Shown here: positions 7,544 through 47,734 of the stretch, in pieces
Layout: every line of letters begins with the position of its first letter
Position numbering within the stretch: position 1 is the first letter of the stretch
Assembly (NCBI GenBank): GCA_900316305.1
Contig: ONCM01000009.1
Location: 1-64,000, forward strand
Source of the DNA: an uncultured Bacteroidales bacterium
Lineage (GTDB): Bacteria > Bacteroidota > Bacteroidia > Bacteroidales > WCHB1-69
Direction: 5' to 3'
Length of the DNA: 64,000 bases
The notes under the pieces: model-generated
What the model saw: the letters and a program-made list of their open reading frames with translations, nothing else
Database searches by the model: none
Told to the model about the DNA's origin: nothing
Program-made: the position numbers and the translations under genes

Positions 7544-7571
7544 GTAGAGACGTTTCATGAAACGTCTCTAC
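7544..7571. repeat. 28-bp perfect palindrome, GTAGAGACG type (intergenic copy)
   Basis: Arms GTAGAGACGTTTCA and TGAAACGTCTCTAC form a perfect 28-bp palindrome. Identical copies lie inside two coding regions, at 11913-11940 and 46535-46562. Here it sits between the tRNA-Met terminator and the glutaminyl cyclase promoter. Confidence 0.95.
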
Positions 7572-7595
7572 CGTTTGTCCGTTCATCATTTTTTG

Positions 7596-7603
7596 TATCT
7601 TCG
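7596..7603 (+). promoter_or_regulatory. TATCTTCG -7 box of the glutaminyl cyclase gene
   Basis: One-base variant of TAnnTTTG with an upstream TTTG at 7574-7577, about 19 bp away, matching the phylum's -33/-7 spacing. Confidence 0.5.
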
Positions 7604-7649
7604 CCCGTTATTTTTTAAACATCCTAAATCATTAATGGTCTATTATAAC

Positions 7650-8633
7650 ATGTTGAAATTTAAGACGATATTGATTCTGTTGGTGGGCGCGATCATCCTC
7701 TTCTCCGCTTGCGACCGCACCAAGAAAACCCCGAAAGATACCCCTCAAGTCACCGTCACTTTGCCGGCGTTCGACAACGACTCCGCTTACGTGTTTGTGA
7801 AGGCGCAGACCGACTTCGGACCGCGCGTGCTGGGTACGGAAGCGCACGAGAATTGCCGCACATGGCTATTGGGGAAACTGTACGAGTACTGCGATACGGT
7901 TTACAACCAGACATTTACAGCCAAAACTTACGATGGAAAATCGTGGCCTTGTGCCAATCTTGTCGGCAGTTTCGGTCCCGAAAAGACGAAGCGTATCGTT
8001 TTAGCTGCGCACTGGGATTCCCGTCCTTTCGCCGACCACGATCCGATTCCCGCGAACCGCGAAACCCCCATTGACGGGGCCAACGACGGCGCTAGCGGCG
8101 TGGGTGTGCTGCTCGAGATTGCTCGTCAACTGCACGAGAACCAGCCGAATGTGGGTGTCGATATCGTTTTCTTCGATGCCGAGGACTACGGTCCGAGGGA
8201 GAGCGAGAGCGTGCCCGGCGACTGGTGGGGACTCGGCGCACAATACTGGGCGAAAAATCCTCATATCCAAGGATATACGGCTAACTACGGCATACTGCTC
8301 GACATGGTGGGCAGTCCAAACGCGCAGTTCATGCAGGAGCAGTTCTCCTTGCGGGATGCGCAGAATGTGGTGCAGAAGGTATGGTCCACAGCCTACGAAC
8401 TTGGGCACGGACAGTACTTCCAAAACAAGCCCGGCGGCGTGATCACCGATGACCATTACTATGTCAACAAATACGCGCCGTTCAAGATGATCGACATTAT
8501 CCACTACGACGCGGCTTCCGGCACCGGTTTCGACCCCGTCTGGCATACCGTGAACGACAATATCCAGCACATCGACCGGAACACCCTCGGTGTGGTGGGT
8601 ACAACCTTATTGCAAGTCCTTAAAAACGAATAA
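7650..8633 (+). CDS. Glutaminyl cyclase-like M28 zinc lipoprotein
   Basis: A 327-aa lipoprotein of the M28 fold resembling bacterial type II glutaminyl-peptide cyclotransferases (PgQC-like), which form N-terminal pyroglutamate on exported proteins. The signal peptide ends in lipobox LFSAC (Cys21). Zinc-site residues are visible as His121 in AAHWDSRP, Asp146 in GANDGASG, Glu178 in FFDAEDYG and His299 in VWHTVND. The segment GDWWGLGAQYWAKNP is the typical QC block. I chose the ATG at 7650 because it opens the signal peptide directly. Six bases separate it from the aspartate kinase gene, so the two are probably cotranscribed. Confidence 0.88.
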   Translation: MLKFKTILILLVGAIILFSACDRTKKTPKDTPQVTVTLPAFDNDSAYVFVKAQTDFGPRVLGTEAHENCRTWLLGKLYEYCDTVYNQTFTAKTYDGKSWPCANLVGSFGPEKTKRIVLAAHWDSRPFADHDPIPANRETPIDGANDGASGVGVLLEIARQLHENQPNVGVDIVFFDAEDYGPRESESVPGDWWGLGAQYWAKNPHIQGYTANYGILLDMVGSPNAQFMQEQFSLRDAQNVVQKVWSTAYELGHGQYFQNKPGGVITDDHYYVNKYAPFKMIDIIHYDAASGTGFDPVWHTVNDNIQHIDRNTLGVVGTTLLQVLKNE

Positions 8634-9914: not shown

Positions 9915-9942
9915 GTAGGGGCGAATAATTATTCGCCCCTAC
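9915..9942. repeat. 28-bp perfect palindrome, GTAGGGGCGAA type
   Basis: GTAGGGGCGAATAA and its exact complement, starting 3 bp after the aspartate kinase stop. It could act as a transcript end but lacks a T-run. Confidence 0.9.
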
Positions 9943-11796: not shown

Positions 11797-13491
11797 TTAT
11801 GAATTATGAATAATTTTGCGGATGAATTCGCGGTTGTCGGAGGTTTTGAGGTGGAGGATGTAGGTGCCGAAGGGGAGGGCGCGGAAATCCAATTTGATGA
11901 TTCCGTCCCGTTGTAGAGACGTTTCATGAAACGTCTCTACAGGTCTGCCATGAATGTCATATAAGGCCATGTCAACGATTTCCAAACCACCGTCAACCTC
12001 CACGGTTACGTAGTCCTTCGCGGGGTTGGGATAGATCGTCACCTTGTTTTCGTAATTATCAATGCCGACGGGTTTGCTCAATTGCACGTTTTGTACCAGT
12101 TTCTCGCCGTCAACAACGTTGGTGACGATGGTCTTGGGCAGATACCCCTCCGCCGAATAGGTCACCGCGTACTGTCCGCCTTTGATGGGCCGGTGGTAGT
12201 CGCCGTGGGGAAGGGAGGTCTCGACGTAGGAGTGGTCAAGATCGTGGTTGGCGATATAAATCAGCGCTTCCAACGGCTCTCCGGTCAGCGAATCGGTGAC
12301 AGTGCCGTGGATGCCGTTGTCGGCCTCCGCAATGAAGTTCAGCAGTGAACGGTAGATATATCCCCAATAAATGGGCAGTTGACTGGAATTGAGTACTTTG
12401 TCGTTGCTGACTTCAACGGTGACGTGCCGTGTGCCGAGATACCAGTTGTGATAATCCTGCATGGAACCGGTGATGACGTACCAGTCGCCGCCTTCCGTGA
12501 CACCGTTGTCCTCTTCGTTCATGAATAGAGGGAAAACGAAGTGACAGGTGTCGGCAAATTGGCGGCCGACCAACTCCCACCAATCGGCATCCGCATGACT
12601 GCGTTGCCAAGTCATCCAAGTGTCCCAAGGATAGTTGAAAACCTCTGCGCCGCCATGGAAGTTGGCTGCTAACGTGAAATTGTGTGCCGACAGAAATTGC
12701 ATCATCGCCTCTATCTCAGGCTCGTAGGACGATTTCGCAATGGGCTCTCCAGCCAATGGGAAATCCCTGTTGAGGTCCTCCCAGTGGCTGTTGTAGCGCA
12801 TGGAAACAGGGGTCTCATTAATCTGGTTGTCGGAACTGAAGTAAGTGCCGTCGGGGTTGTAGAGCGGACATATCCAAAGGTCAATGTTGTTGACAAGATG
12901 GGTGATGTAAGAGTTTGTGTTGTAGTTTGTTAAAAGATAATGTATCAGTCGGAGCATTTCATGGTATCCGACTACCTCGTCCCCGTGAATGGTGGAAATA
13001 TAGCATACCGAAGGCTTGCCTTCATTGTCGTTAAGGTTGTTGCTGATGTGGGCGCAGAGAATCTTGTGCCCATTCGGAGTCGTGGCCAAGATGGTGTCAA
13101 TTTCGCACAAGTTCGGGTAGCGAGTCTGGAAGGTGTCCATGATGGCGAGATAGGTGCTGTAGGTCGGGTAGCGGGTCCAGCTGGCCGTCATCTGCTCGTA
13201 ATTATGTGCCATGGTTACTTGAGCGCGGGTCTTCGGTGTCACCGTGTAAGGGATGTGCAAGGCTTGAAAGGCATCGAACTCTTTGTACGACAGACTGATG
13301 CGGGTGTTGAAAGTGCCATCGGCATTGCGCTGCACCTTGTCCACGGAGAAGTCTCTCGACAGCGACTGCAGTGTGGCGGCATCGAGGACGGTCTCCACGT
13401 AAGTGGCGGGGTAGGTGAGGGCCGTGTCCTGGGCCGACACGGTGATGGCGATGAGGATTGTGGCGATGAGGGGGAGGATGTTTTTTTTCAT
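11797..13491 (-). CDS. Secreted M14 zinc carboxypeptidase with T9SS sorting domain
   Basis: A 564-aa exported metallocarboxypeptidase. The signal peptide is MKKNILPLIATILIAITVSA and a propeptide-like region reaches ~110. In the M14 domain the zinc ligands are His169 and Glu172 (STIHGDEVVGYHE) and His279 (ANFHGGAEVFNYPWD); Glu360 in VTVEVSND is the catalytic base. A carboxypeptidase regulatory-like beta domain spans about 393-475, and a type A sorting domain (VTIYPNPAKDYV) closes the protein. Residues 518-527 read VETFHETSLQ and are encoded entirely by the 28-bp palindrome at 11913-11940, within a loop of the sorting domain. Confidence 0.92.
   Translation of the reverse strand: MKKNILPLIATILIAITVSAQDTALTYPATYVETVLDAATLQSLSRDFSVDKVQRNADGTFNTRISLSYKEFDAFQALHIPYTVTPKTRAQVTMAHNYEQMTASWTRYPTYSTYLAIMDTFQTRYPNLCEIDTILATTPNGHKILCAHISNNLNDNEGKPSVCYISTIHGDEVVGYHEMLRLIHYLLTNYNTNSYITHLVNNIDLWICPLYNPDGTYFSSDNQINETPVSMRYNSHWEDLNRDFPLAGEPIAKSSYEPEIEAMMQFLSAHNFTLAANFHGGAEVFNYPWDTWMTWQRSHADADWWELVGRQFADTCHFVFPLFMNEEDNGVTEGGDWYVITGSMQDYHNWYLGTRHVTVEVSNDKVLNSSQLPIYWGYIYRSLLNFIAEADNGIHGTVTDSLTGEPLEALIYIANHDLDHSYVETSLPHGDYHRPIKGGQYAVTYSAEGYLPKTIVTNVVDGEKLVQNVQLSKPVGIDNYENKVTIYPNPAKDYVTVEVDGGLEIVDMALYDIHGRPVETFHETSLQRDGIIKLDFRALPFGTYILHLKTSDNREFIRKIIHNS
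11913..11940. repeat. 28-bp GTAGAGACG palindrome inside the M14 peptidase gene
   Basis: Identical to 7544-7571 and 46535-46562. Read in the peptidase frame it gives VETFHETSL(Q). It sits between GRP and RDGII of the sorting domain. Confidence 0.95.
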
Positions 13492-46513: not shown

Positions 46514-47734
46514 ATGGAAGAGACGAATCCCTCTGTAGAGACGTTTCATGAAACGTCTCTACAATCATCTGATAACGCATCGCAACAAACTGCGAAAAAG
46601 GTTCGCAAAAAGCGTTCCTTATGGAAATCGTGGAAACGGCTGAAAGGTCGCACGAAATTCTATCTTATTGTATTACACCTCTTTGCGCTGGTGGGTGCGG
46701 GCATCCTCGGCGCATGGGCGTTTTATGAGTTAGGGTTTACGAACAATAAGGGCGGTACGGATAAAAATAACCGTTACCTCTCTGAAAATCAGAAATATGC
46801 AGCGCAGGCGGATACCGTGAACAGTCAGGAAAAGACGTTGAACGGCTACCGGAACTTGTCGGTGTTGCGCGAATTTTACCCGCAGAATGCCGACTTGATC
46901 TTTAATGCTGCGCAGTTCAGCGACCGTCCCACGGCAATACAGGAGATGATTTACGCCGCCAACATGTACATGCAGGGCGACGACCACGCCACCGCCTACC
47001 AGAAGATGGTGGCGGATGTGGATAATATTCTGAAATCCAATAGGATGAAACCCTTCGAGGGGAATGTGATTCCTTGGATGAATGACTCCGCATGGCCTGC
47101 GCTGAAGGCTGCTATCCTGAAAGACACGGCCGTGATTTACGAGGCCGCGCGTCTCACGGGTGTGGAACCCCGTCTTATCGTAGGCTGTCTTGTGGGTGAG
47201 CAGGTGCGTCTGTTCAACAGTAAGCGCGAGATGTTCAAGCGCTACCTCGGTCCGATGAAGGTGCTCTCCGTGCAGTCGCAGTTCTCGTTAGGTGTCAACG
47301 GTATCAAGGACTTTACCGCCATGCAGGTGGAGCGCAACCTCACCGACACCGCCTCCATCTTCTACATGGGCAAGCAGTACGAGCATATCCTTGATTTCCA
47401 GACTGCTGACCATCAGAGTGAGCGGTTCAACCGACTGACGAACTACCATAACCATCTGTATTCCTACCTTTACACGGGATGTATCCTGCACCAGACCATG
47501 TTGCAGTGGAAGCGTTCTGGCTATGACATCGTCAACCGTCCCGACATTCTATTTACCCTGTTCAACCTCGGTTTCCAGGCTTCCAAGCCCGGTCCCGACC
47601 CGAAGTGCGGCGGTTCGCATATTACCGTGCACGATGAGGTTTACACCTTCGGGGTGATTTGCAACGACTTCTACTACTCTGGCGAGCTGGCTGAATATTT
47701 CCCGTTGAAAGCGCAACGCTTTGCCAATGAGTAA
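46514..47734 (+). CDS. Membrane-anchored protein of unknown function, possibly lysozyme-like
   Basis: A 406-aa protein. After an N-terminal stretch containing VETFHETSLQ (residues 8-17, encoded by the palindrome at 46535-46562) and a basic run (KKVRKKRSLWKSWKR), one transmembrane helix (YLIVLHLFALVGAGILGAWA) anchors a large extracytoplasmic domain. Its segment EPRLIVGCLVGEQVRLF ... FSLGVNGIKDFTA loosely resembles the E-x-S/G-x-x-Q layout of lytic transglycosylases, but the family is not recognised. It overlaps the U32 peptidase gene by eight bases, so the two are translationally coupled. Confidence 0.6.
   Translation: MEETNPSVETFHETSLQSSDNASQQTAKKVRKKRSLWKSWKRLKGRTKFYLIVLHLFALVGAGILGAWAFYELGFTNNKGGTDKNNRYLSENQKYAAQADTVNSQEKTLNGYRNLSVLREFYPQNADLIFNAAQFSDRPTAIQEMIYAANMYMQGDDHATAYQKMVADVDNILKSNRMKPFEGNVIPWMNDSAWPALKAAILKDTAVIYEAARLTGVEPRLIVGCLVGEQVRLFNSKREMFKRYLGPMKVLSVQSQFSLGVNGIKDFTAMQVERNLTDTASIFYMGKQYEHILDFQTADHQSERFNRLTNYHNHLYSYLYTGCILHQTMLQWKRSGYDIVNRPDILFTLFNLGFQASKPGPDPKCGGSHITVHDEVYTFGVICNDFYYSGELAEYFPLKAQRFANE
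46535..46562. repeat. 28-bp GTAGAGACG palindrome inside the membrane-protein gene
   Basis: Identical to the copies at 7544-7571 and 11913-11940. Translated in frame as VETFHETSL(Q), as in the M14 peptidase. Confidence 0.95.

Follow-up and report, generated by a model that had tools for sequence, protein, structure and literature searches.

Here, we describe a palindrome of 28 bp that occurs three times in a 64,000-nucleotide stretch of DNA from an uncultured Bacteroidales bacterium (the whole stretch is called the window in the following). By its sequence this palindrome is a double-foot REP, a known REP type, with GTAG at one end and CTAC at the other. We have filed it there because the picture at RAYT loci agrees with that of TnpAREP subclass 2.4 in the available text of PMC6006769. 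The best explanation, which we hold with considerable confidence, is that the palindrome belongs, as a miniature element, to the RAYT/TnpAREP world, that it has been multiplied by a RAYT and that resident cores have been exchanged in place. The element is known; the in-place switching of its core, whose mechanism we infer from sequence comparisons, may be new.

Palindromes in the window and beyond

An exact search places GTAGAGACGTTTCATGAAACGTCTCTAC with 0 mismatches at positions 7544, 11913 and 46535 of the window, so that the three identical perfect palindromes of the original prediction are confirmed, and 100 dinucleotide shuffles of the window gave 0 matches to GTAGAGACGTTTCATGAAACGTCTCTAC. 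The spacer copy (7544-7571, core TTTCATGAAA) is 28 bp long and lies directly 3' of a T-rich terminator-like sequence. Both coding copies are 30-bp palindromes of the form TGTAG...CTACA, including the flanking T and A. One of them (11912-11941) lies in the sorting domain of an M14 peptidase gene, the other (46534-46563) in the N-terminal part of a membrane-protein gene. Two related palindromes of the double-foot type are present in the window, the perfect intergenic GTAGGGGCGAATAATTATTCGCCCCTAC at 9915-9942, which is the type found at the M14 site of genome G017, and the imperfect GTAGGGGCGAAAAATCTTTCGCCCCTAC at 1738-1765 with 13 of 14 pairs, for which the aligned place in G017 has GTAGAGACGCACGGCCGTGCGTCTCTAC. 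The spacer copy is followed by a weakly peptidase-like ORF (7557-8633, plus strand); its listed ATG is part of the palindrome, and the true start probably lies elsewhere.

The first host gene (11797-13491, minus strand) codes for an M14 zinc carboxypeptidase with a T9SS sorting domain (Pfam PF00246 Peptidase_M14, 1.1e-44; PF18962 Por_Secre_tail, 3.8e-10), and the latter domain (486-561) spans the palindrome, in line with the location predicted earlier. The product of the second (46514-47734, plus strand) is a putative membrane protein, "membrane" being read from the sequence; it matched no Pfam or NCBIfam family and has matches in 31 of 40 genomes of the genus. The peptide VETFHETSLQ, said to be shared by the two proteins, can indeed be read in both, and both use the frame VETFHETSL, the sole stop-free frame of this core, the two others running into TAG and TGA. 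These stops account for the common frame of the two window genes, which is no evidence of function. Among ten other family sequences that were translated, nine have a stop in one frame only and thus two open frames, and in RAYT genes both open frames of family palindromes are in use.

The genome from which the window derives comprises 3.28 Mb in 99 contigs, of which the window is contig 32, and is 97% complete. It harbors 51 copies of the palindrome at up to 3 mismatches, with 36 of the 50 places listed being exact. Eighteen of the 51 copies were read (15 loci and the 3 in the window), and six of the 18 lie in ORFs with Pfam or orthologue backing, which bears out the idea of a spreading element that tolerates coding DNA. 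The six ORFs are the M14 peptidase, the membrane protein, a GH78 rhamnosidase, a polyferredoxin, a molybdopterin-domain ORF with the palindrome outside the domain-matched part, and HydF, where the palindrome forms the last residues; all read the frame VETFHETSL. The N-terminal copy in the membrane protein is very probably translated, because MEET and the palindrome stand in frame in all 15 near orthologues, our own one included. From the few genes seen, copies in genes would survive where the open frame of the palindrome is used and where the place is a loop, a linker or a terminus.

In the same genome, 207 places fit a wider pattern in which GTAGRGRCG and CGYCYCTAC are separated by up to 24 bases; read backwards, the pattern fits 0. 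Among the matches listed, nearly all palindromes are exactly 28 bp long and the ten-base cores are palindromic or nearly so. As far as these sequences go, the family is set by its arms and its length, and the core varies. Over all loci, 77% of 492 flanks have a T directly before GTAG, and 148 of 246 palindromes are bordered by both the T and the A. A frame-preserving insertion unit of 30 bp appears plausible on this basis.

Across 24 genomes of the genus, including our own, the number of copies at up to 2 mismatches ranges from 0 (four genomes) to 84. The exact 28-mer occurs in at least 111 stretches across genomes, which among the matches listed belong to Bacteroidales, one Patescibacteria record, two Neomarinimicrobiota records and several cyanobacterial genera, including Cylindrospermum, Argonema, Dolichospermum, Crocosphaera and Nostoc; the suspected presence in other phyla, cyanobacteria included, is thereby borne out. 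When the arms are fixed and ten bases are left free, the pattern matches 37 of 296 Bacteroidota genomes, our own included (reversed control, 1 genome), and 30 of 146 genomes of the cyanobacterial phylum, a rich centre genome included (reversed control, 0). Our own genome, with 172 such matches, has the most among the 296 Bacteroidota genomes. Phages and plasmids gave no match to the 30-mer at megablast sensitivity.

RAYT genes and related repeat families

RAYT loci were found with the NCBIfam RAYT model and then with one RAYT protein of genome G015 as query, chosen because two exact 28-mers flank its gene. The association count uses the protein query; the NCBIfam model alone seems to mix RAYT groups. 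The 44 match rows gave 30 RAYT-like loci of the genus, among them that of the query. A GTAG...CTAC palindrome lies within 500 bp of, or inside, the ORF at 16 of these 30 loci, as compared with 51 of 642 control windows (binomial 1.2e-10), and the association persists when the query locus is left out (15 of 29, 8e-10). The control windows had the same length and were placed around palindrome-bearing genes, and hence are, if anything, palindrome-rich. No such palindrome was seen at 14 of the 30 loci, one of which ends at a contig end. Thus, the palindromes are associated with the RAYT genes and, by inspection, the core goes with the type of RAYT. The TTTCATGAAA core lies on either side of the RAYT ORF of G015, 94 bp upstream and 50 bp downstream. 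It is also found within two RAYT-like ORFs, that of L076 and a partial one at L032; both loci were retrieved by the 28-mer itself and stand outside the count of 30. CGCCATGGCA is present at the RAYTs of G008, G023 and G050, and CAAAATTTTG at those of G000, G012, G050 and G054. Inner copies keep the reading frame of the RAYT ORFs; 9 of the 11 marked are located in the variable loop between the HUH and Tyr motifs and 2 before HUH. The NCBIfam model REP_Tyr_transpos matches all six RAYTs scanned, one above the curated cut-off and five below, and Pfam gave no family in the two RAYTs scanned. In the alignment, read by eye, HUH and WQ are present in most rows, NHLH and D-for-N occurring as variants; YIENNV is a frequent form of the Tyr motif.

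In several RAYTs of the CAAAATTTTG type (L261, L273, L274 and L276) the variable loop contains SETQNFASLQ or GTRNFASLQ, apparently a decayed copy of their own REP. At aligned places by one RAYT gene (L239, L240 and L241) the slightly asymmetric core TGCCATGGCG / CGCCATGGCA is found in opposite orientations, and a RAYT of G013 (L268, contig C67) has two palindromes with the arms GTAGAGCCG...CGGCTCTAC, a variant of the family arms. Among the genomes with 28-mer loci, which are mostly cyanobacterial, 7 of 18 match the RAYT protein. The Phormidium RAYT (L316) has double-foot palindromes of the TTGCATGCAA type before, inside and after the gene. L318 and L319 also have double-foot palindromes beside the RAYT, and the rest of the 12 loci have mostly GTAGGGGC-type repeats or none. 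At L318, from Symploca, four palindromes at 83-bp spacing, of which three are imperfect, lie ahead of and across the start of the RAYT-like gene.

In our own genome none of the seven Y1_Tnp/RAYT matches, all of which were inspected, is a RAYT flanked by the TTTCATGAAA core. The sole one with adjoining palindromes is the RAYT on contig C66, and these are of the CAAAATTTTG type. A match on C48 was considered as a REPtron; two palindromes, one of them TTTCATGAAA, lie about 0.5 kb away with another gene between, and it was not counted. The cognate RAYT may have been lost, may be missing from the assembly, or its place may have been taken by the work of another RAYT. G006, with 84 copies, has two RAYT matches, and the one inspected is without such a palindrome; G014, with 62 copies, has 0 matches to the protein query and weak matches to the NCBIfam RAYT model.

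According to the available text of PMC6006769, TnpAREP subclass 2.4 occurs in Cyanobacteria and Bacteroidetes, its double-foot REPs have the ends GT[AG]G and C[TC]AC, REPs lie inside the tnpAREP gene with the frame kept, and its proteins carry the motifs NH[IFV]H, WQ and YIxNNP. The REPs of this subclass, or RAYT group 4, resemble ours in their ends, the long stem, the position beside and inside the tnpAREP gene and the phyla. However, compared with that description, our own genome is without a RAYT flanked by the exact core, and in-place switching at host genes is seen here. As far as PMC3733652 is available, its GTAG REPs share with ours the GTAG end, the link to RAYT and copies inside host genes, but their GTAG is unpaired and at one end, whereas here it pairs with CTAC, so that ours are not canonical GTAG REPs. 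The same text assigns GTAG repeats to Proteobacteria, Cyanobacteria, Chloroflexi and PVC, and only CGTC repeats to Bacteroidetes. REPINs are likewise RAYT-linked, non-autonomous and present in many copies, but are REP doublets that form a hairpin (PMC3116915, available text), whereas the window copies are single symmetric palindromes; the nearest other palindrome is about 2 kb off, and close pairs occur elsewhere in our own genome. The original prediction had likened the element to the Rickettsia palindromic elements. This holds functionally, as both are in-frame palindromes in unrelated genes, but not for the type of element. In the portions of PMC3733652 at hand the Rickettsia elements end in CGTC and no linked transposase gene is reported for CGTC repeats, whereas here the ends are GTAG and CTAC and go with RAYT genes; we have rejected this assignment.

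Orthologous sites with different cores

In the membrane-protein gene the palindrome is found at the same place, in the same frame and with a length of 28 in all 15 near orthologues, which come from 15 related species. The more distant orthologues (15 of 30 loci) have no such N-terminal stretch. At least 12 of 14 pairs form in 14 of the 15, and G009 has 11 by eye. Sorted by eye, the cores fall into eight classes, among which those of G002 and G054 may be decayed forms of other cores. With the palindrome removed, a maximum-likelihood tree was computed from the gene body (15 rows, 4 of 12 inner branches well supported). On this tree 10 changes account for the core classes, 7 being the lower limit. 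Shuffling the labels gave a mean of 10.2, and a number as low was reached in 123 of 200 shuffles. Hence, among these 15 rows the core classes show no detectable phylogenetic signal: the place is inherited, and inheritance of the core is undetectable.

Near orthologues have peptides such as VETLRATSLQ and VETVHAPSLQ at the site. The same peptide in two genes could point to an ordinary conserved motif of the two proteins, an objection already raised with the original prediction. This explanation is refuted, and we give it practically no weight, since the near orthologues keep the DNA palindrome while core and peptide change; moreover, some copies have no long ORF over them.

At the M14 site, 12 or more pairs form in 9 of the 17 near orthologues; the cores differ, one (G017) being of the GTAGGGGCGAATAATTATTCGCCCCTAC type, and in the remaining near orthologues the stretch is decayed. 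Between G000 and G017 arms and core have both changed, at 10 of 28 positions. Thirteen distant orthologues have no palindrome at this place; distant orthologues carry an unrelated stretch of nearly equal length there. The earlier proposal of an inserted element is upheld as far as spreading is concerned, but not for insertion into an empty gene.

The clearest case of a changed core is the membrane-protein site of G006 and G021, a pair picked after the fact. The 400-bp flanks are 99-100% identical, yet the palindrome itself shows 7 differences over its 28 bp. The surrounding block of about 6 kb differs by 2%, and of the 8 differences in the 250-bp bin 7,750-8,000, 7 fall within the 28 bp. Against 0.21 differences expected from the 828 bp around the site the Poisson probability of 7 is 3e-9; it is 1e-8 with 1028 bp, and 1.5e-6 with the 0.53 expected from the 6-kb block. 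Many of the genomes compared are fragmentary, and the estimated contamination of G006 is 7%. This is the one distinct site pair in which a different core stands between near-identical flanks: of the 15 rows with flanks at or above 95%, 11 differ at 0-1 positions and 4 are G006/G021 again via overlapping loci. Counting the focal sites, TTTC(AT/AG)GAAA types make up 5 of 7 sampled palindromes in G006 and CGATTAATCG 5 of 8 in G003, and CGCCATGGCA is joint commonest in G021 with 3 of 17. In these three genomes, weakly so in G021, a focal-site core leads or shares first place among the palindromes sampled. The core of the membrane-protein site of G012 has no second copy in 271 kb.

For a broader view, 51 site pairs were kept from 213 after filtering on flank length and duplicates; species and sites overlap, so that these pairs are not independent. 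The differences number 124 at the ten inner positions and 41 at the eighteen outer positions. Stem pairs changed on both sides number 53, as compared with 20-22 expected under an even spread of changes along the palindrome and 36.7 if the totals of core and arms are kept, which makes the excess weaker. Where flank identity is 80-89%, palindromes and flanks differ to a similar degree on average. At 75-79% and 90-94% the palindrome mean is the smaller of the two, and below 75% as well as at or above 95% it is the larger; the bulk thus reflects a different pattern of change and not faster change. Flank pairs with a palindrome-like stretch number 165, and those without it 83, 16 of which are tight. 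No clean empty site was found among the 83, and no target duplication was seen. The 16 tight pairs turned out to be palindromes that had decayed or shifted, hairpins of other kinds, or spacers rich in repeats. One candidate for an empty site, G003 L191:4807 compared with G009 (2 bases for 39), lies in a repeat-rich spacer with flanks of 72/89% and was rejected. In place of the palindrome of G010 at L307:13387, G021 has an unrelated 28-base hairpin-like stretch, GTAGGGCTGTCACAATGTGGCAGCCCTG.

A loop of the GH78 rhamnosidase (own gene L010:127-2940; compared loci L328-L352) has double-foot palindromes in G000, G006, G014 and G040, decayed palindromes in G012 and G003, and other repeats in G009, G013, G017, G021, G050 and G055. 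In G009, G013 and G017 (L329, L330 and L335) the repeat has GTCACGAAGTGAC between short C-rich/G-rich arms. Judged by these sequences, tolerant places also undergo turnover.

How a resident core might change

Several routes could lead to different cores at one address. Our tentative reading is an in-place rewriting of REP palindromes: the copy that occupies an address, also within a host ORF, would be overwritten by another core type of the same cell. Copying over in this way fits best because the changes are simultaneous and the cores recur elsewhere. A somewhat doubtful alternative is drift at the site with self-correction, in which a change in one arm is copied to the other by template switching in the palindrome's own hairpin, or is matched by selection on the hairpin, without any donor. 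Drift is supported by compensatory pair changes at orthologous sites (GTAGAGACGC...GCGTCTCTAC compared with GTAGAGACAC...GTGTCTCTAC), by the surplus of stem pairs in which both sides have changed, and by flips of cores with a slight asymmetry, and because of the compensatory pairs and the flips we see a fit with hairpin self-correction. Drift is harder to reconcile with seven simultaneous changes between the near-identical flanks of G006 and G021, with the joint change of arms and core at the M14 site, and with the many cores at switched sites that are types recurring elsewhere in the genus and at RAYT genes. Copy-over and self-correction may both act. Loss of the element followed by insertion of a new one at the same tolerant place appears unlikely to us; the rhamnosidase loop, which holds palindromes of different cores or else other repeats depending on the species, would agree with such turnover, but the constancy of place, frame and length in the membrane protein would not, nor would the lack of a clean empty site, for which G003/G009 was the sole candidate.

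The hairpin is strong, the spacer copy adjoins a terminator-like sequence, and roles of REPs in termination and mRNA stability have been hypothesised (PMC3733652, available text), so that a transcription terminator or regulatory RNA hairpin common to many genes has to be considered. Copies inside ORFs and near RAYT genes, together with a mean flank composition that has no T run 3' of the hairpin, make this very improbable, and we have rejected an intrinsic terminator.

Our best explanation envisages the following sequence of steps. A RAYT of subclass 2.4, an HUH-type nuclease similar to IS200/IS605, would recognise the hairpin and its GTAG/CTAC feet in single-stranded form. It would cut the hairpin and rejoin it elsewhere, so that one type of core multiplies in a genome; cutting of a single-stranded hairpin by RAYT has been shown for other groups in the accessible part of PMC8266576, and for the present group catalysis would be analogous only by inference. 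Comparison of orthologous sites shows that an occupied address can stay occupied for long, with the core being swapped and length, frame and flanks unchanged. The most likely route would be copying from another palindrome of the cell. Here RAYT could exchange strands where the feet are paired, or replication could switch templates within the hairpin.

For recB of two Xanthomonas species, different REPs have been described at nearly one and the same position (PMC3733652). In the orthoswitch model (PMC3686654) the REP class changes at orthologous RAYT genes and partial replacement of old variants is mentioned; however, old genomic copies are left to decay, whereas here the copies in host genes change type themselves. 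Apart from these two reports, as far as their text is available, the open-access literature, outside which most subscription journals lie, yielded no precedent for in-place REP switching, and a word search with GTAGAGACG in the same literature returned unrelated titles only among the matches listed.

How REPs spread is regarded as an open question in the available parts of PMC8266576 and PMC3686654. Sites in coding genes with alignable flanks allow one to ask directly whether a REP has moved to a new place or has been copied over an old one, and the membrane-protein site, with one position, 15 species and eight core classes, is a ready test bed. Here a small selfish DNA writes part of host protein sequences. 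If the proposed switching is true, turnover of the REP population would come mostly from homing to sites that already hold a REP, and some host proteins would carry a ten-residue cassette whose sequence is set by the last winning REP type.
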